Assembly (NCBI GenBank): GCA_002686955.1
Contig: NYZA01000084.1
Span: forward strand, 1 to 7,780
DNA length: 7,780 nt
Source: Gemmatimonadota bacterium
GTDB taxonomy: Bacteria; GCA-2686955
Direction of reading: 5' to 3'
Shown here: positions 1,575 through 7,776 of the stretch, piece after piece
Position numbering within the stretch: position 1 is the first letter of the stretch
Layout of the letters: each line of letters begins with the position of its first letter
The notes under the pieces: generated by a model
What the model saw: the letters and a program-made list of their open reading frames with translations, nothing else
Databases searched by the model: none
What the model was told of the DNA's origin: nothing
Made by a program: the position numbers and the translations under genes

Positions 1575-4349
1575 TCAAGGCAACTTCGTCACCTCGAGCG
1601 CATCCACCGACTCGACCAGACCTTGCCACGCCCCGACGCGCAGCTCGTAGCTCCCGGTGCCCGCGGGCGCGGCACCCGGCACCTCTTGCACAAGTGGCGC
1701 CGTCACGAAGCCGAGCGCCGGAACCTCCACCGAAAGCGGTCCCTGTATCGGCTCCATTTCGGTGTCTCCAATTAGCGCCGCGGTCCAGGCGTCCGTGGAG
1801 GTGGTGACGAAGCCGCGATTGAAGATCGACGCCTGCAGCGAGAAGCTCCCTCCTTCCGCCGGCAGCTCCACCGGCACCTCGTTCGGCGCCGCCACCGCGA
1901 CCGATCCGCCGATCCCGTTGTGCTGCTCCGGTGAAGGCGCGACCTGCTCCGACCAGGCGCCCAGACCATCGGCCTCCCTCGCGCGCGAGAGGTCGGTTCC
2001 CTGCGGACCGAAGCTCAGGGTATCGAGGACGACCTCGCCGCCTGGGCCGTAGAGCCCAACGAACTCTCCACTCTTGCTCAGCTTGAAAGGTGCGTGCAGC
2101 CCGGAATCCCCGCCGTCGTCGTCAGCCCAAATGAGCAGGTAGCCGCCGCCCGGGATCACGCTGCCCGCCGGCAGACTCCATTGCGTCGGCGCATTCGGAT
2201 CATCGCTCATGCAGAATCCGGTGAGATCGAAATCCACATCGCCCAGGTTGGCCAGCTCGATCCAGTCGTCGTACTCACCCTCCGCGTCTTGAAGTGTCGT
2301 CTCGTTGTCGGCCAACAGCTCGTTGACCGTGATTGCCGGGCGGCCAACAAAGCTCAGTGCGTGATAGGCGCTCTCGGGGGCACCGGACGGAAGTGTCGCT
2401 TCCCCCCCCTCTCCGTCTTCGACGCGGACGTAGTAGGCGATCGTAGTATTCATCGCCTGCCCAGGAATCGCTGTGCTCCAGATTCCGTCCGATTCGACCA
2501 TCGGTAGCGCGATCGATCCGCTCCCGGCATCGTAGATCAGATCCACGAATTCGATCGGCGCGCTTGTCTCCGTGACCCACGCATCGACTTCGACCGGGCG
2601 ATTCGGAGCAGGGAAGAGCGGGCTCGCAACAACTCGATCGATTCGCGGAGGGAAGGCATCGGAATTGGGCTCGTCCGGCGTTGCGGGAATGGCGCCGATC
2701 CAGGGGCTACCGTCGGTGTAGCGACCCCATGCGGCGTCCGGATCGAGCCGATCGAAGCTAAGATGGTCGAGCAGATCCTCATCCGGCGTGAAGAGAAAGA
2801 GCTCTTCGCCGACATCGTTCAGGGCAAATGGTGCATGCAACGCACCCTGGGCGGGTGTGGAATCCAGCCACAGCAAGAGACGCCCCCAGGCCGGCAGAAC
2901 GGCGTCGGCCGGCAGCACCCAACGAAAAGGATCGCTATGATCATCGGTCAAGCCGCACCCTTCCAGCGACACTTCTTGCCCCGTGGCGTTGTAGATTTCG
3001 ACGTAGTCGTCGAACTCCCCAAATTCATCGCTGAGCGTAGCTTCGTTGTCCGCCATGAGCTCATTGACGAAAACGTACTGCGGATCGAGCAACGAATCGA
3101 TCTCGGGCTGCAGGGCGGCGATACGATTCCCGACGAACGATTTCAGGCCGTAGTATCGATCGAATCCAAAACCGACATCCTCTTCGAGCCCCTGATCGAA
3201 CCAGGAGTTCGGAAACTGTTTGTTCGGATCGGCATAGACGTGAGCGCGCACCACATCCGCGATGCGGTCGATACGGGCGTCCATGTCGTCTTGCGTCCAA
3301 CGCGTGCTCAGAAGATCGTGCATATGTCGCAAGTAGATCTCTCTGTATAGATCGACCTCGAGCAGACGATCGACCAGAGGCCGGGAAGGGTTGTTCGTCC
3401 AGAGAGCGCTCATGTTCTCGAATCCGCCAGGTGGGGGTTGGATGTTCCTCGTGAAGCTCCCAAACGCCATATTCTCATCCCAGGGGATGTGCACGAAGCG
3501 CCCTTGATCGTCCCGCCGGTACATGTAGTAGTTGTGCCCAGACCCTTCGTAGGAATCGAGACTCACCAGAGCGATCTGAAGAGCATGGTGGCGGAGCCAA
3601 GTGTCGACATCGAATTGCGGGGCCAGGGAATCCGCCAACGACTCCAGGTCGGTGTTGTTTATCTCGTCGATCAGATCGATCAGATCGGAGTAGTCGTTCT
3701 CTTCTTCGTTGGTTTCGAGCACGTAGCGGCTTTCATAGGGCTCTTGCTCCGATCCAAGCCAGGTGAAATCGGCGTTCCGTTCACCCTCCCAGAGATTGCC
3801 GTCCTCCCCGGAATCGAAATGGATCTCCGTCCATGTGCCCGTCACGGTCTCCACAATTGTGTAGAAGCCGATGAGCTCTCCGTTCACTCGAAGGTCGGCG
3901 AAGCCGGTGCGGCATCCCACGCCGATCTCCCGCAGCAGCTCGTACGAGACCGCCTCGCGAATCAACGTCGGATCTTTGAATCCGTTGTTCAACATGATCG
4001 AAGGGAGACCGTCGAGCGTCTGGTCCTCACGGTACTCGCCGAACTTGATGCGAAAAGGCTTCTTGATCCCCGGATGCGTGTAGGACGAATTCCCCTTGAA
4101 GCGAACCCCGACCGAGTCGATCAGCACTCCGTCCACACTGAAGCTCCCCGCCGCGTAGGTCGCCGTCTCGTAGTTGTCCTCGAGCACCTCGAACCAGTCT
4201 TCGAAATCGAAATCGATAGCGATCTCGTGCACGACGCTGTTGTCGAGAAGCTCCTCCTGGGTAGTTTCATCGGTTAGCGGGAGATGCGTAGCTCCAAACG
4301 CCGCTGTGGCGCAAAACAACGACGAGAGAAGTCGGGCCGATCCGATCAT
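1575..4349 (-). CDS. Secreted CotH kinase-family protein with two lamin-tail domains
   Basis: Exported 924-residue multidomain protein. Residues 1-20 form a signal peptide ending FGA, cleavage likely before THLP. The CotH domain spans about 35-420: RFKGNSS (83-89), KKPFRIKF (96-103), LRVNGELIGFY (153-163) with E167, then D265, HNYYMY (272-277) and IPWDENMAFG (288-297). D265 and D291 presumably match the two catalytic aspartates of Bacillus subtilis CotH, an atypical protein kinase of spore-coat proteins, so phosphotransferase activity is possible but unproven. Lamin-tail domain 1 (426-553) and domain 2 (672-800) are internal homologues with an Ig/FN3-like segment between them (about 566-667); residues about 815-920 look like another beta-sandwich. 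No C-terminal sorting motif or membrane helix is seen, so it is probably secreted or surface-associated. An AGAGG Shine-Dalgarno 8 bases upstream supports the ATG at 4349. It appears to be transcribed alone: 192 bases separate it from the kinase downstream, and the next gene upstream is divergent. Substrate unknown. Confidence 0.93.
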   Translation of the reverse strand: MIGSARLLSSLFCATAAFGATHLPLTDETTQEELLDNSVVHEIAIDFDFEDWFEVLEDNYETATYAAGSFSVDGVLIDSVGVRFKGNSSYTHPGIKKPFRIKFGEYREDQTLDGLPSIMLNNGFKDPTLIREAVSYELLREIGVGCRTGFADLRVNGELIGFYTIVETVTGTWTEIHFDSGEDGNLWEGERNADFTWLGSEQEPYESRYVLETNEEENDYSDLIDLIDEINNTDLESLADSLAPQFDVDTWLRHHALQIALVSLDSYEGSGHNYYMYRRDDQGRFVHIPWDENMAFGSFTRNIQPPPGGFENMSALWTNNPSRPLVDRLLEVDLYREIYLRHMHDLLSTRWTQDDMDARIDRIADVVRAHVYADPNKQFPNSWFDQGLEEDVGFGFDRYYGLKSFVGNRIAALQPEIDSLLDPQYVFVNELMADNEATLSDEFGEFDDYVEIYNATGQEVSLEGCGLTDDHSDPFRWVLPADAVLPAWGRLLLWLDSTPAQGALHAPFALNDVGEELFLFTPDEDLLDHLSFDRLDPDAAWGRYTDGSPWIGAIPATPDEPNSDAFPPRIDRVVASPLFPAPNRPVEVDAWVTETSAPIEFVDLIYDAGSGSIALPMVESDGIWSTAIPGQAMNTTIAYYVRVEDGEGGEATLPSGAPESAYHALSFVGRPAITVNELLADNETTLQDAEGEYDDWIELANLGDVDFDLTGFCMSDDPNAPTQWSLPAGSVIPGGGYLLIWADDDGGDSGLHAPFKLSKSGEFVGLYGPGGEVVLDTLSFGPQGTDLSRAREADGLGAWSEQVAPSPEQHNGIGGSVAVAAPNEVPVELPAEGGSFSLQASIFNRGFVTTSTDAWTAALIGDTEMEPIQGPLSVEVPALGFVTAPLVQEVPGAAPAGTGSYELRVGAWQGLVESVDALEVTKLP
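1950..2336 (-). repeat. Second lamin-tail domain repeat within the CotH-family gene
   Basis: Encodes residues 672-800. It opens with VNELLADNETTLQDAEGEYD, continues DWIEL, and later has APFKLSKSGEFVGLY (753-767) and TLSF. These landmarks match domain 1 in order and spacing, indicating an ancestral internal duplication. Lamin-tail domains are Ig-like folds common on bacterial secreted proteins, usually as accessory or binding modules. Confidence 0.8.
2691..3074 (-). repeat. First lamin-tail domain repeat within the CotH-family gene
   Basis: Encodes residues 426-553, directly after the CotH domain. It opens with VNELMADNEATLSDEFGEFD, continues DYVEIYN, and later has APFALNDVGEELFLF (506-520) and HLSF. 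It shares these landmarks with the second copy at 1950-2336, but the two DNA copies have diverged clearly, so the duplication is old. Confidence 0.8.
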
Positions 4350-4589: not shown

Positions 4590-4871
4590 ATGCGTACTCG
4601 TACCCTTCTGAGCGTTCTCACCCTAAGTCTCGCGATCCCTCACAATCCCGCGCAGGCCGCTGTCTGCCCGCCCGATTTGGCGTTGGATGTCGCCTTGGTG
4701 GAGGATCTCACGATCGCCGCCAACGTAAACGAGTGGCAAACGCTTTTCCTCGACGCTTATGTGCCAAATGGCACTTTCATGGTCTACGTCCAGCTCGAAG
4801 CCGAATACGATAGCTCCACTCTGAGTGACGCGTTCTTCTTGGAAGCACGCCAACAAGGCGAGGCACAGTAG
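4590..4871 (+). CDS. Small exported protein of unknown function
   Basis: A 93-residue frame and the only plausible plus-strand gene here. Residues 1-23 look like a Sec signal peptide: basic MRTRT, hydrophobic LLSVLTLSLAI, then PAQA with likely cleavage before AVCPP. The mature part has one cysteine (C26) near its N-terminus and alternates polar and hydrophobic residues as beta-strands do, for example EWQTLFLDAYVPNGTFMVYV (48-67). That stretch loosely recalls the second half of jelly-roll carbohydrate-binding modules, where W-x-T...P is followed by strands; this is an impression, not an assignment. The mature domain is short for such a fold, so it may be a truncated remnant with an intact 5' end. 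It has a reasonable Shine-Dalgarno, is divergent from the CotH gene and is convergent with the PPTase gene, whose end lies 38 bases away. Its base composition seems less GC-rich than its neighbours. Confidence 0.5.
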   Translation: MRTRTLLSVLTLSLAIPHNPAQAAVCPPDLALDVALVEDLTIAANVNEWQTLFLDAYVPNGTFMVYVQLEAEYDSSTLSDAFFLEARQQGEAQ

Positions 4872-4909: not shown

Positions 4910-5521
4910 TCATAGGGCAACCTGAGAGCCAGTCGCGCGTCCGCAGTGCGCCGCCGCCCAAGCCAGCCACCGACCGTGGTGCGAGAGGCTCAGATCCACT
5001 GCGAGTGGCCGCTCGCTTCGACAGAGGCGCGGCGGTCGCGATCCAGAAATATGCAGCTCGTCGCCCTTGCCCAGCCACAGGCCCAAGTCCCTGAGCGCGT
5101 ACGCGCGAACAGCGGCCGAGTCATCGCCGCTCGACCGGCAAGAAGCAACATTAGAGAGGAACTCTCCGCGGCCGGAGCTCGCGACCGCGTGGATGCAATC
5201 TTCCAGACATCCAACTTGCAGAAATAGTCGCGATCCTACATGCGACACGGTCCCCCGAGCGGTCTTCCCGCGCCCATCATCAGCGAATTCGACCCGGAAG
5301 GCAGCCGGAGCGAATACCGTCTCGGGCACGAGCTTCTTCAGAAGCTTGTAGGCAGCCTCTTTCGCCGCCCAATGCATCCACAGCGCACGATGAGGATTGA
5401 CGCTCTCGGAGATACAGCGACGTTCTTCGGGCGCGAAGACCCGCATCATAAACCTGGGGTGCAGGTTCCCGATCTTGGTCTCGTCATCCCTCAAGTCGAC
5501 GACATCATTGCCGATCAGCAA
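4910..5521 (-). CDS. 4'-phosphopantetheinyl transferase
   Basis: Transfers the phosphopantetheine arm of coenzyme A to a conserved serine of a carrier protein; the ACP two genes upstream in the same operon is the obvious partner. From the chosen start the protein has 203 residues. It opens with LIGNDVVDL (2-10), holding the metal-binding aspartate region (D6), then RFMMRVFAPEE (23-33) and the family signature WAAKEAAYK (51-59; K54, E55, K59). The C-terminal part ends in a strand motif, VDLSLSHHGRWLAWAAA (175-191), seen in many members. The frame is open further up to an ATG at 5599, but homology begins at once with LIGND and upstream residues would be antisense-like coding inside the acyltransferase gene. 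The TTG at 5521, with GGAGA at 5531-5535, is therefore preferred; ATT at 5524 is an alternative. It overlaps the acyltransferase gene by 17 bases, which suggests translational coupling, and it is the last gene of the operon. Confidence 0.88.
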   Translation of the reverse strand: MLIGNDVVDLRDDETKIGNLHPRFMMRVFAPEERRCISESVNPHRALWMHWAAKEAAYKLLKKLVPETVFAPAAFRVEFADDGRGKTARGTVSHVGSRLFLQVGCLEDCIHAVASSGRGEFLSNVASCRSSGDDSAAVRAYALRDLGLWLGKGDELHISGSRPPRLCRSERPLAVDLSLSHHGRWLAWAAAHCGRATGSQVAL

Positions 5522-6260
5522 AATGGTCGTTCTCCAGGCGGACCAGGGTCTGCCCGATTCCACGCGCAGTCTCCCGCGCGCCTCGCAGGCCGGTCTCATT
5601 CGCGTCTGGCGTGATCAGTGCGAAGCGGACGCTGAACACTTGATCCCGGACAGGTAGAACCGTCTTCTCCACTTGCTTCTCGCCACGCAAATACACGCAG
5701 AGGATGCGGCAGCCTTCGACAGTGTTTGCGATGCCTCCCACTCCATAGCTCATACTATCGGCATCGACACGGCCGGTGACCGTTCGCCCACCCTCTGGAA
5801 ATATCATCACCAACTCCCCACGTTCCAGCAGCCAGCCGAGCTTTGCTAGGACGACACGTTGAGCCCTACGCTCCCCTCCCCGGCGAATCGGCAGGCATTT
5901 TCCCACATAGCAAAGTCCCTTCAACCAGACGCTCCGATAGAAATTCGCCTGCTCGGGTGTGTTCCAGGCGAAGAAACGGAAACCGGTGAGAAGCTGCCAC
6001 GGAGAGGAGATGGCCCACTGCACGAGGAGAGAATCGATCCAAGTCAGGTGATTCGGGCAGATGAGCACTGGTCCTTGTGTTTGCCGCAACAAGGCTCGCG
6101 CCTGGGCGCGCACGGCCGCCAACCGACGAATGCGGTAGCCCCGTACATGTCTCAGCCACAGCAAAGCCAAAGGCCACAACGGCAGCGCAGCGATCTGACT
6201 GATCCGACGCTGAATGTGCAGCGCATGGCGCTGGCGCCTAATCGATCTTGGCGAGTACAA
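5505..6260 (-). CDS. PlsC-family 1-acyl-glycerol-3-phosphate-type acyltransferase
   Basis: Membrane-associated acyltransferase of the lysophosphatidate acyltransferase superfamily. Numbered from the TTG at 6260 (251 residues): a hydrophobic segment near 23-36 (IAALPLWPLALLWL), the HX4D catalytic motif in NHLTWIDSLL (70-79; H71, D76), the CLPIRRGG region (122-129), and FPEGGRT (154-160), the acceptor-phosphate-binding FPEGTR-type motif. In this operon it probably transfers the chain made on the ACP to a lipid or other acceptor; a housekeeping role in phospholipid synthesis is possible but less likely given the context. The start is uncertain. The frame stays open to an ATG at 6356, but that would overlap the ACP gene by more than 110 bases and those residues look spurious. 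GTG 6275 and TTG 6260 are the reasonable choices, overlapping the ACP gene by 38 and 23 bases; no clear Shine-Dalgarno decides. Its 3' end overlaps the PPTase gene. Confidence 0.88.
   Translation of the reverse strand: MYSPRSIRRQRHALHIQRRISQIAALPLWPLALLWLRHVRGYRIRRLAAVRAQARALLRQTQGPVLICPNHLTWIDSLLVQWAISSPWQLLTGFRFFAWNTPEQANFYRSVWLKGLCYVGKCLPIRRGGERRAQRVVLAKLGWLLERGELVMIFPEGGRTVTGRVDADSMSYGVGGIANTVEGCRILCVYLRGEKQVEKTVLPVRDQVFSVRFALITPDANETGLRGARETARGIGQTLVRLENDHFADRQ
5531..5535 (-). promoter_or_regulatory. Ribosome binding site deciding the PPTase TTG start
   Basis: GGAGA on the minus strand, inside the 3' end of the acyltransferase gene, 9 bases from the TTG at 5521. No ATG or GTG exists in frame at suitable spacing, so this site supports the non-ATG start. 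Confidence 0.5.
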
Positions 6261-6486
6261 GTTCGGTGGCGTCACCGATCGTCGCGACTCTGTCAGCGGC
6301 TTCATCCTCGACCTCGATATCGAATTCATCTTCGAAGGCCAGCACGATGTCGACAAGACGCGCGGAGTTCACCTTGAGCTCGTCCAAGATCGATGTCTTC
6401 GCCGTGATCGTCGCCATCGCATCCATGTTCTTCACGAAGGGCCGTACAATCTCGACTACTTTGCTCATCACTTGCTCTTCGTTCAT
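6238..6486 (-). CDS. Acyl carrier protein with NSAR in place of the DSL motif
   Basis: An 82-residue phosphopantetheine-binding carrier protein that holds growing acyl chains as thioesters. It aligns without gaps to Escherichia coli AcpP through the central region: SILDELKVNSARLVDIVLAF (32-51), then EDEFDIEVEDEAADRV. The attachment serine is S41, equivalent to AcpP Ser36. The residues around it are unusual: N40 replaces Asp, A42 replaces Leu and R43 replaces Asp, so DSLD becomes NSAR. Otherwise the protein is acidic and of typical length. It starts 12 bases after the ketosynthase stop, with AAAGG (6494-6498) at 7-base spacing, and its end overlaps the probable start of the acyltransferase gene. 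The pairing with a ketosynthase and its own PPTase points to a dedicated pathway rather than general fatty acid synthesis. ATG at residue 7 is an alternative start. Confidence 0.92.
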   Translation of the reverse strand: MNEEQVMSKVVEIVRPFVKNMDAMATITAKTSILDELKVNSARLVDIVLAFEDEFDIEVEDEAADRVATIGDATELVLAKID

Positions 6487-6493
6487 TGCCTTG

Positions 6494-6498
6494 CCTTT
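6494..6498 (-). promoter_or_regulatory. Ribosome binding site of the acyl carrier protein gene
   Basis: AAAGG lies immediately after the TAG stop of the ketosynthase gene, with 7 bases to the ATG at 6486. The abutting stop and Shine-Dalgarno suggest that ribosomes finishing the ketosynthase feed the carrier protein gene. Confidence 0.6.
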
Positions 6499-7776
6499 CT
6501 ACGAATCCCAATGCTTGAACACCAGGCAGCAGTTTACATCGCCAAAGCCGAAACCGGCCTTGAGCATCACATTAAGGTCGTTGATTGCGCGCGAGCGATG
6601 CACGACGGAATCCGCGTAGGCATCGAGCCGCGCATGCAGATCATCACAGTTCACGGAGGCATGGAGGAAACGCTCACGAACCATCAGAATCGCGGCGATC
6701 GACTCGATTGCGCCGGCGGCGCCGAGTGCGTGGCCGATCAACGACTTGGTCGCGGTGATCGGGGGGAGCTCGGAGGGCTCGCGGCTGAGCGCTTCGGCCC
6801 AGTTCCGGAGCTCGAGGGGATCCGCCATGGTCGCGGTCAGATGCCCACTGATGGCGTCGACTTCTCGCGCGTCGATGCCTGCGTGACGCAGGGCGCCGCG
6901 GATGCAAAGTTGTACGCCTACCGGATTGGGCGCGGTCATGCTTCCCCCCTGGCGCTGCCCGCCACAGTTCACGTGGCCACCCAGAATCTCGGCGTGAATC
7001 GACGCGTTGCGCTCCAGAGCGCTCTCCAAACGCTCCAGCAACAACACACCGGCGCCGGCGGCGGGAACGAAACCGGTGGCGCTCGCGCTCATAGGCCGCG
7101 AGGCTCGGGCGGGACTCTCGTTGAAGCCTCGGGCCAGCACGCGCATCCCGTCGAAGCCCGCCCAGATATAGTGACTCGCACCTTCGACCGCGCCCGCGAG
7201 CATGCGGGTGGCGCCACCGCCCGCGATTCGTTCGGCGGCGACATGGATCGCTTCGGTTCCGGTCGTGCAAGCGCTGCTGTTGGTCGTGACCCGATTTCCA
7301 AGCCCGAACATCCCGCCGATCTTCGCGCTGACGCTGCTGGCCATCACCTGTTCGACGCAGGCGGAGCCCAGGCGGCGAACTCGCGCCGCGTCGGTGAAGG
7401 GCACCAGGCGTTCGCCCACGACATCGATGCCGCCGATACCCGTGCCGATTACCGCGCCGCATTCCCAATCCACCGCGTCATCATCCGGGCGTGGACGGTC
7501 AAGGCCACCGTCGCGCCAAGCTTCCAGTGCGGCGATGCCCGCGAATCTCATGCCGGAGCTCATGGCCATGAGCTCTTCTTGGGTGAAGAGGTCCTCGGCA
7601 ATGGTGTCGGTTCCCCGAGGCACTCCGGCGACCTGGCAACCGAACCCGAGCTCTTCCAGAAGATCGATCTTGCGGATTCCGGAGCGACCTTCGCGCAGCG
7701 ATTGCTCGAACTGGGTGACGTTATTGCCGTTGGGTGCTACGACGCCCAGGCCGGTGACGACGACGCGCTCTCTCAT
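6499..7776 (-). CDS. Beta-ketoacyl-ACP synthase (FabF-like, divergent clade)
   Basis: Condensing enzyme of 425 residues that joins an acyl unit to a malonyl-type extender on an ACP. It has the thiolase fold with a complete Cys-His-His set: C170 in SSACTTGTEA (167-176), H312 in SGHLTATMADPLE (310-322), and K344 plus H349 in TKSLIGHALGAAGAIE (343-358). The N-terminal VVVTGLGVVAPNG (5-17) and C-terminal GFGFGDVN (408-415) are also typical. It differs from housekeeping FabF at several motifs: the second histidine loop reads GHLTATMAD rather than HGTSTPxGD, the usual RDGFVxGxGAG region is ATGFVPAAGAG (233-243), and the end is GDVN rather than GGTN. All catalytic residues are present, so it is probably active and not a chain-length-factor partner, which lacks the cysteine. 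The ATG is 4 bases from the right edge, so its Shine-Dalgarno and any upstream operon genes are not visible. Product unknown. Confidence 0.94.
   Translation of the reverse strand: MRERVVVTGLGVVAPNGNNVTQFEQSLREGRSGIRKIDLLEELGFGCQVAGVPRGTDTIAEDLFTQEELMAMSSGMRFAGIAALEAWRDGGLDRPRPDDDAVDWECGAVIGTGIGGIDVVGERLVPFTDAARVRRLGSACVEQVMASSVSAKIGGMFGLGNRVTTNSSACTTGTEAIHVAAERIAGGGATRMLAGAVEGASHYIWAGFDGMRVLARGFNESPARASRPMSASATGFVPAAGAGVLLLERLESALERNASIHAEILGGHVNCGGQRQGGSMTAPNPVGVQLCIRGALRHAGIDAREVDAISGHLTATMADPLELRNWAEALSREPSELPPITATKSLIGHALGAAGAIESIAAILMVRERFLHASVNCDDLHARLDAYADSVVHRSRAINDLNVMLKAGFGFGDVNCCLVFKHWDS

Follow-up and report, generated by a model that had tools for sequence, protein, structure and literature searches.

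An operon in Gemmatimonadota with a divergent ketosynthase probably encodes a second, self-contained type II fatty acid synthase coupled to a lipid acyltransferase

The stretch of DNA analyzed here (the window) is an entire contig of 7,780 bases (NYZA01000084.1; contig C84 of genome G000) from a draft genome of a Gemmatimonadota bacterium. It carries four minus-strand genes that, according to open reading frame (ORF) calls and Pfam matches, are arranged in the order ketosynthase (KS), acyl carrier protein (ACP), PlsC/GPAT-type acyltransferase (AT) and phosphopantetheinyl transferase (PPTase). The KS (6499..7776; 425 amino acids) matches the Pfam domains ketoacyl-synt (8.5e-33) and Ketoacyl-synt_C (1.7e-23), and was examined further with NCBIfam models and by residue and clade analysis. 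Exactly 12 bases separate this gene from that of the ACP (6238..6486; 82 amino acids; PP-binding, 1.3e-4), whose N-S-A motif is evident from the alignment of its relatives. The AT (5505..6260; Acyltransferase, 1.1e-11; AlphaFold2 model) contains the motifs NHLTWIDS and FPEGGRT; its start is uncertain, with the longest ORF beginning at TTG 6356, within the ACP gene, and the likelier start, assumed here, at TTG 6260, which gives a 23-base overlap with the ACP gene. The PPTase (4910..5599; ACPS, 1.3e-12; GNDVVDL...WAAKEAAYK) starts either at ATG 5599 or at TTG 5521 and accordingly overlaps the AT gene by 95 or 17 bases. An earlier note on this DNA, made from the letters alone, had described four genes on one strand with a 12-base gap followed by two overlaps; this layout holds, the sizes of the overlaps depending on the start codons chosen. 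A scan for promoters and terminators across the window yielded nothing beyond the chance level. The start codon of the KS gene lies 4 bases from the end of the contig, so that any upstream enzymes are hidden by the assembly edge.

The missing upstream part can be approached through related loci. The only other genome of the same phylum that we compared (the sister genome, G001) has the same operon on contig C642, where the C-terminus of FabH (bases 2-106, about 35 residues), FabA, a FabZ-like dehydratase, KS, ACP, AT and PPTase follow one another in a single run, in the same order as in the window and with 76% (KS), 78% (ACP) and 63% (AT) sequence identity; there is no FabG between FabA and the KS. 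At the edge of another sister contig, C529, lies the N-terminus of an enoyl reductase (ER) that is 60% identical to the ER of operons of this type, beside a divergent TetR-like regulator (named by the appearance of its sequence). A wider set of relatives was obtained in one scan of GTDB genomes with short peptide patterns, in which the best 80 of 114 candidates were kept; these 80 loci, with KSs 47-76% identical to that of the window, represent no fewer than 11 named phyla, with 22 loci in Myxococcota, 17 in Bacteroidota, 12 in Gemmatimonadota, 6 in Acidobacteriota, smaller numbers in the others and 9 that are unassigned; the conservation figures below describe this fetched set. Because of the peptide patterns and the cut at 80, the operon must be more widespread than these loci show. 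When 386 diverse genomes, drawn at random at the domain level, were sampled separately, only the window genome and its sister matched the KS at an E value of 1e-75; the figure hinges on this sample, and the operon is accordingly sporadic.

Neighbor clustering, family scans and hidden Markov model (HMM) mapping revealed the usual gene order, (FabD)-ER-FabH-FabA-(FabG)-FabZ-like-KS-ACP-AT-PPTase-(acyl-CoA carboxylase fusion), with a single KS per operon and no chain-length-factor partner. Gene presence was counted in the 37 loci among L025-L084 that had enough flanking sequence: FabH, the FabZ-like protein and the ACP were present in all 37, FabA in 36, the AT in 35, the PPTase in 31, the ER in 24, FabG in 22, the acyl-CoA carboxylase in 18 and FabD in 8. 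The persistence of this order in the sister genome and across the 37 loci, a check that the earlier note had proposed, indicates that the four-gene arrangement in the window is not a chance one. The catalytic residues of the accompanying enzymes are retained: His and Asn in 44 of 44 FabH sequences and Cys in 42 (the other two have gaps); in FabA, His in 36 of 36 and Asp in 35 of 36 (one X); and in the FabZ-like proteins, His in 63 of 63, along with a conserved Glu. One FabA relative passes the cut-off of the NCBIfam model PRK05174 (193 vs 124 bits). The reductase consensus YaAVxAAK (42 sequences) contains the Y-X6-K pair, which marks the enzyme as an enoyl reductase rather than a ketoreductase; FabL is its best-matching model, yet the match stays below the FabL cut-off. 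Thus, a full cycle (starter KS, ketoreductase, dehydratase and ER) is encoded in the operons of many relatives, whereas the sister genome shows the FabH end, FabA and the FabZ-like protein, and none of these is assembled upstream in the window genome. The absence of a visible reductive enzyme, which the earlier note had weighed, is a consequence of the contig end.

The KS is distinct from its housekeeping counterparts. Its catalytic set is intact (Cys170-His312-Lys344-His349), and the corresponding residues are kept in 74 of 74 relatives (one further row is a gap), yet the score against the curated FabF model TIGR03150 is 269.7 bits, well below the cut-off of 493.75. In a phylogenetic tree built by quick search, in which E. 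coli FabB forms a long branch, 73 operon KSs were separated from 19 housekeeping KSs by one branch (SH-aLRT support 100). The gate of elongating KSs consists of the GFGG loop 1 and Asp265 of loop 2 (Mindrebo et al., PMC7138838), and, among the KSs compared there, only the actinorhodin KS is reported to lack Asp265 (PMC7138838). In our alignment, FabF Asp265 is replaced by Gly, and Gly402 by Asp (giving GFGD), in every one of the 73 operon KSs and not in any of the 19 housekeeping KSs, all of which keep both Gly402 and Asp265; the KS clade of the window thus lies outside the FabF/FabB gate pattern. In addition, FabF His268 is replaced by Arg, loop 2 is longer by four residues, and Gly304, beside the catalytic His, is replaced by Leu in 72 of the 73. 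In the window KS, these clade marks are Gly272, Arg275, Leu313 and Asp413 (FabF 265, 268, 304 and 402, respectively). The pocket position FabF 108 is occupied by Ile, not the Gly of FabB, in 51 of 75 operon KSs. Judging by these replacements, the substrate gate of the KS appears to be rewired, and the alignment suggests that the gating Asp may have been relocated from loop 2 to loop 1.

The ACP is similarly set apart. The motif Ser is kept in 65 of 65 relatives and so is the Asn preceding it, such that the motif reads N-S-A/T where housekeeping ACPs have D-S-L; the window ACP shares 34% identity with its housekeeping counterpart in the same genome and 78% with the sister ACP. The AT retains the NHLT..DS (NHX4D) and FPEG motifs and the lysophospholipid acyltransferase (LPLAT) fold that characterize the PlsC/GPAT superfamily, but scores only 27.3 bits against TIGR00530 (PlsC, 1-acylglycerol-3-phosphate acyltransferase; cut-off 102.95) and so falls outside the PlsC subfamily. 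Its AlphaFold2 model (pLDDT 92.6) aligned best, by VIA-align, with GPAT1 (Z 15.4; 3.4 Å over 225 residues), followed by PlsC (14.3), PatA (11.0) and LpxM (9.4); plain Foldseek with the same model gave PatA as the sole match, and searching the solved structures with the AT and PPTase sequences produced nothing useful. The modeled AT would thus have a fold in common with GPAT and PlsC, a likeness that does not prove the acceptor.

The housekeeping fatty acid genes of the window genome are located elsewhere: fabD-fabG-acpP-fabF lie on contig C197 (L111 7123-10758), not on C84, and encode a FabF and an ACP that are 49% and 64% identical, respectively, to those of E. coli, the C197 KS scoring 602 bits against the FabF cut-off of 493.75. 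A canonical FabF above this cut-off was found in 15 of 15 operon-bearing genomes tested, and the window genome encodes a second PPTase on contig C171. The KS, ACP and PPTase of the operon are therefore a set apart from the housekeeping one, and these observations jointly argue for a dedicated second type II fatty acid synthase (FAS-II), not an aryl polyene cluster. The dedicated pathway suggested by the earlier note is borne out in this respect, the operon KS also falling into a separate clade; an ordinary fab locus, which that note had named as the finding that would tell against it, is seen to the extent that the flanking genes in relatives are fab-type, but the locus is not the housekeeping one. 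A further FabF-like KS of the same genome (G000:C48:7180-8404; L112 7153-8410) is split over two overlapping frames, due to either a frameshift or an assembly error.

In our interpretation, the window contains the 3' half of the operon, which as a whole encodes a self-contained second FAS-II, and the AT moves the finished chain to a lipid acceptor; we assign this reading a probability of about 0.72. In the scheme that we infer for the chain length, the acceptor and the order of the reactions, FabH would prime the chain and the window KS would elongate it; FabG, encoded in the operon or borrowed, would perform the ketoreductase step; and FabA, the FabZ-like dehydratase and the FabL-like ER would complete each cycle on a private ACP activated by the operon PPTase. 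Where FabG is missing, as in the sister genome and several Gemmatimonadota loci, the housekeeping ketoreductase is presumably used. The AT would then shift the finished chain from the ACP to an acceptor resembling glycerol phosphate or to another lipid. The chain would be mainly reduced, with one cis double bond potentially contributed by FabA. The most likely outcome is a special, largely reduced acyl chain that is built on its own ACP and then esterified to a glycerol-type lipid, and the product is probably attached to a membrane or envelope lipid. Several observations weigh against this interpretation. Nothing is assembled upstream of the KS in the window genome, so that the other enzymes are deduced from relatives; FabA, FabH and ER orthologues were searched for in this genome, an incomplete draft, and none was found. 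The two genomes are drafts with a completeness of 84.5% and 83%. In the sister genome, the ER and FabH are on different contigs, and we can only infer that C529 (ER) adjoins C642 (FabH end). Finally, 13 of the 37 loci had no ER identified within the operon and 15 had no FabG, which means that the reductive enzymes may be borrowed or that some lineages may have an incomplete set.

Among the alternatives, supply of an acyl chain for an outer-membrane glycolipid or lipid A, as with the very long chain of the rhizobial acpXL-lpxXL cluster, is unlikely: the two systems follow a common logic of private ACP, KS, FabZ and acyltransferase (PMC11901934), and an LpxL-like acyltransferase is encoded downstream in 10 loci, mostly in Myxococcota, but the window AT is closer to GPAT/PlsC (Z 14-15) than to LpxM (Z 9.4), no LpxL homologue adjoins the window operon, and the presence of FabH and the ER implies that the chain is made from its beginning rather than extended at a late stage. 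The operon could also be conceived as the unsaturated branch of ordinary membrane lipid synthesis, in which FabA makes the cis double bond, the KS is the FabB equivalent and the products feed normal phospholipids. The near-universal FabA of the flanked loci (36 of 37), with His and Asp kept and one member above the PRK05174 cut-off, agrees with this possibility, as does locus L087 of Chlamydiota, where the gene after that of the ACP encodes a cyclopropane-synthase-like enzyme, whose substrate would have to contain a cis double bond. A FabA/FabB branch, however, does not need a second ACP, PPTase, FabH or acyltransferase; FabA is dropped in the Bacteroidota relatives; and the KS groups away from FabB as well (FabB being a long branch), with Ile instead of the FabB Gly at position 108 in 51 of 75 sequences. 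We consider this explanation quite unlikely.

The likeness to aryl polyene pathways that the earlier note had drawn did not survive comparison with the relatives. Aryl polyene or related type II polyene clusters likewise combine a KS, an ACP, dehydratases and a lysophospholipid-type acyltransferase, and some Flavobacteriales loci have an MMPL transporter gene downstream, but the relatives encode an ER and FabH and only one KS per operon, without a chain-length-factor partner, and the E. coli aryl polyene cluster includes neither an ER nor its own PPTase (PMC8253772), making such a product very improbable. Precursor supply for biotin (as pimeloyl-ACP) or sphingolipids is hardly credible. The biotin cluster of Desulfovibrio vulgaris does hold a dedicated ACP, two FabZ-like proteins, FabG and FabF (PMC10102598), but no homologue of bioA, bioB, bioD or bioF/alpha-oxoamine synthase was detected in the fetched flanks of the 80 loci (tblastn with four E. 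coli Bio proteins, 1e-5), and what is conserved in their stead is a lipid acyltransferase. The aryl polyene, biotin and sphingolipid readings were rejected on these grounds, as was a ladderane reading, given the dissimilarity to ladderane clusters detailed below.

The enzyme at the end of the pathway varies among lineages. Five loci encode a PlsC-type acyltransferase other than the AT, in one case at some distance, L087 has the cyclopropane-synthase-like enzyme, and ten Bacteroidota loci lack the AT and have a type III polyketide synthase (PKS) and a methyltransferase upstream. This variation suggests that the operon is a module for supplying chains, whose end uses can be exchanged. The ten flavobacterial loci (L086, L088, L089, L092, L094, L096, L097, L099, L100 and L103) read FAD oxidoreductase (in some), methyltransferase, type III PKS, ER, FabZ-like, KS, ACP, a version reminiscent of phenolic-lipid pathways that have a fatty acid synthase of their own. 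In Leeuwenhoekiella (L095, L098, L101 and L102), a reduced set of FabZ-like, KS and ACP lies between a Met-zincin gene and a nitroreductase gene; the FabZ-like-KS-ACP core also occurs in Dokdonia pacifica DSM 25597. In Myxococcota (L029, L032, L035 and others), FolB (dihydroneopterin aldolase), an LpxL-like acyltransferase and, sometimes, radical SAM genes are located downstream of the carboxylase.

The rest of the window encodes proteins of other kinds. The next gene on the same strand (1575-4349), separated from the PPTase by about 560 bases, encodes a 924-amino-acid CotH kinase-like protein with lamin tail domains and is probably outside the operon. Between these two genes, the opposite strand has a 93-amino-acid ORF (4590-4871, plus) that begins like a signal peptide and matches no Pfam family. 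A serine/threonine protein kinase domain protein (3-1382, minus) is truncated by the left end of the contig.

No operon of this kind, and no homologous operon tied to a product, an outcome that the earlier note had named as a counterargument, was found in the open-access papers searched. When bacteria have a dedicated second fatty acid synthase, it is usually a sign of a special lipid in the membrane or envelope. The synthase described here is found repeatedly in phyla with few cultured members, including Gemmatimonadota, Myxococcota, Acidobacteriota and Latescibacterota; the shorter form occurs in cultured Flavobacteriaceae, so that the product can be sought in existing strains. A broader possibility, which we offer tentatively, is an elongating-KS family, present in at least 11 phyla, in which the gating Asp moved from loop 2 (FabF Asp265) to the hinge of loop 1 (Gly402), loop 2 lengthened and a Leu was placed by the catalytic His, and which may drive a self-contained second FAS-II for an undescribed envelope lipid, the end enzyme (acyltransferase, cyclopropane-synthase-like enzyme or type III PKS) depending on the lineage. 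A strict change of gating residues in a KS is a natural test of the current model of acyl-ACP substrate selection.

Compared with housekeeping FAS-II and PlsC, the operon enzymes have the same reactions and folds, with the catalytic residues intact, but are encoded by separate genes, the KS falls under the FabF cut-off with changed gating loops, and the ACP has NSA for DSL. In the phenolic-lipid systems of Azotobacter (Ars) and Streptomyces (Srs), a dedicated fatty acid synthase, of type I in Ars, feeds a type III PKS. The ten Bacteroidota relatives, in which genes for a type III PKS and a methyltransferase adjoin the ER-FabZ-KS-ACP core, are similar, whereas the window and most relatives have an acyltransferase in place of the type III PKS. 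Aryl polyene clusters (ApeA-R) hold KS, ACP, dehydratases and a lysophospholipid-type acyltransferase together, as the operon does, but are characterized by an aromatic-starter ligase, a KS/chain-length-factor pair and no ER (gene table of PMC8253772); among the conserved neighbor clusters scanned, which do not cover every neighbor, there was no aromatic starter ligase (ApeH) or ammonia-lyase. The FAS-II clusters of anammox bacteria and Desulfotalea, proposed to produce ladderanes or polyunsaturated hydrocarbons (PMC2649909, PMC4790861), are also extra FAS-II sets with a divergent KS; unlike the operon, they contain many FabF copies, phytoene desaturases and radical SAM enzymes, and the Kuenenia cluster lacks FabA. 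The rhizobial cluster acpXL-fabZXL-fabF2XL-fabF1XL-adh2XL-lpxXL, which provides the very long chain of lipid A (PMC11901934), likewise unites a private ACP, KS, dehydratase and acyltransferase beside the housekeeping FAS-II. That cluster, however, encodes two FabF proteins, an alcohol dehydrogenase and an LpxL-type acyltransferase and elongates a chain, whereas the operon has one KS of another clade, FabH, FabA, an ER (in relatives), a PPTase and a PlsC/GPAT-type AT; the operon is built on a similar principle to acpXL-lpxXL and is not a member of it.

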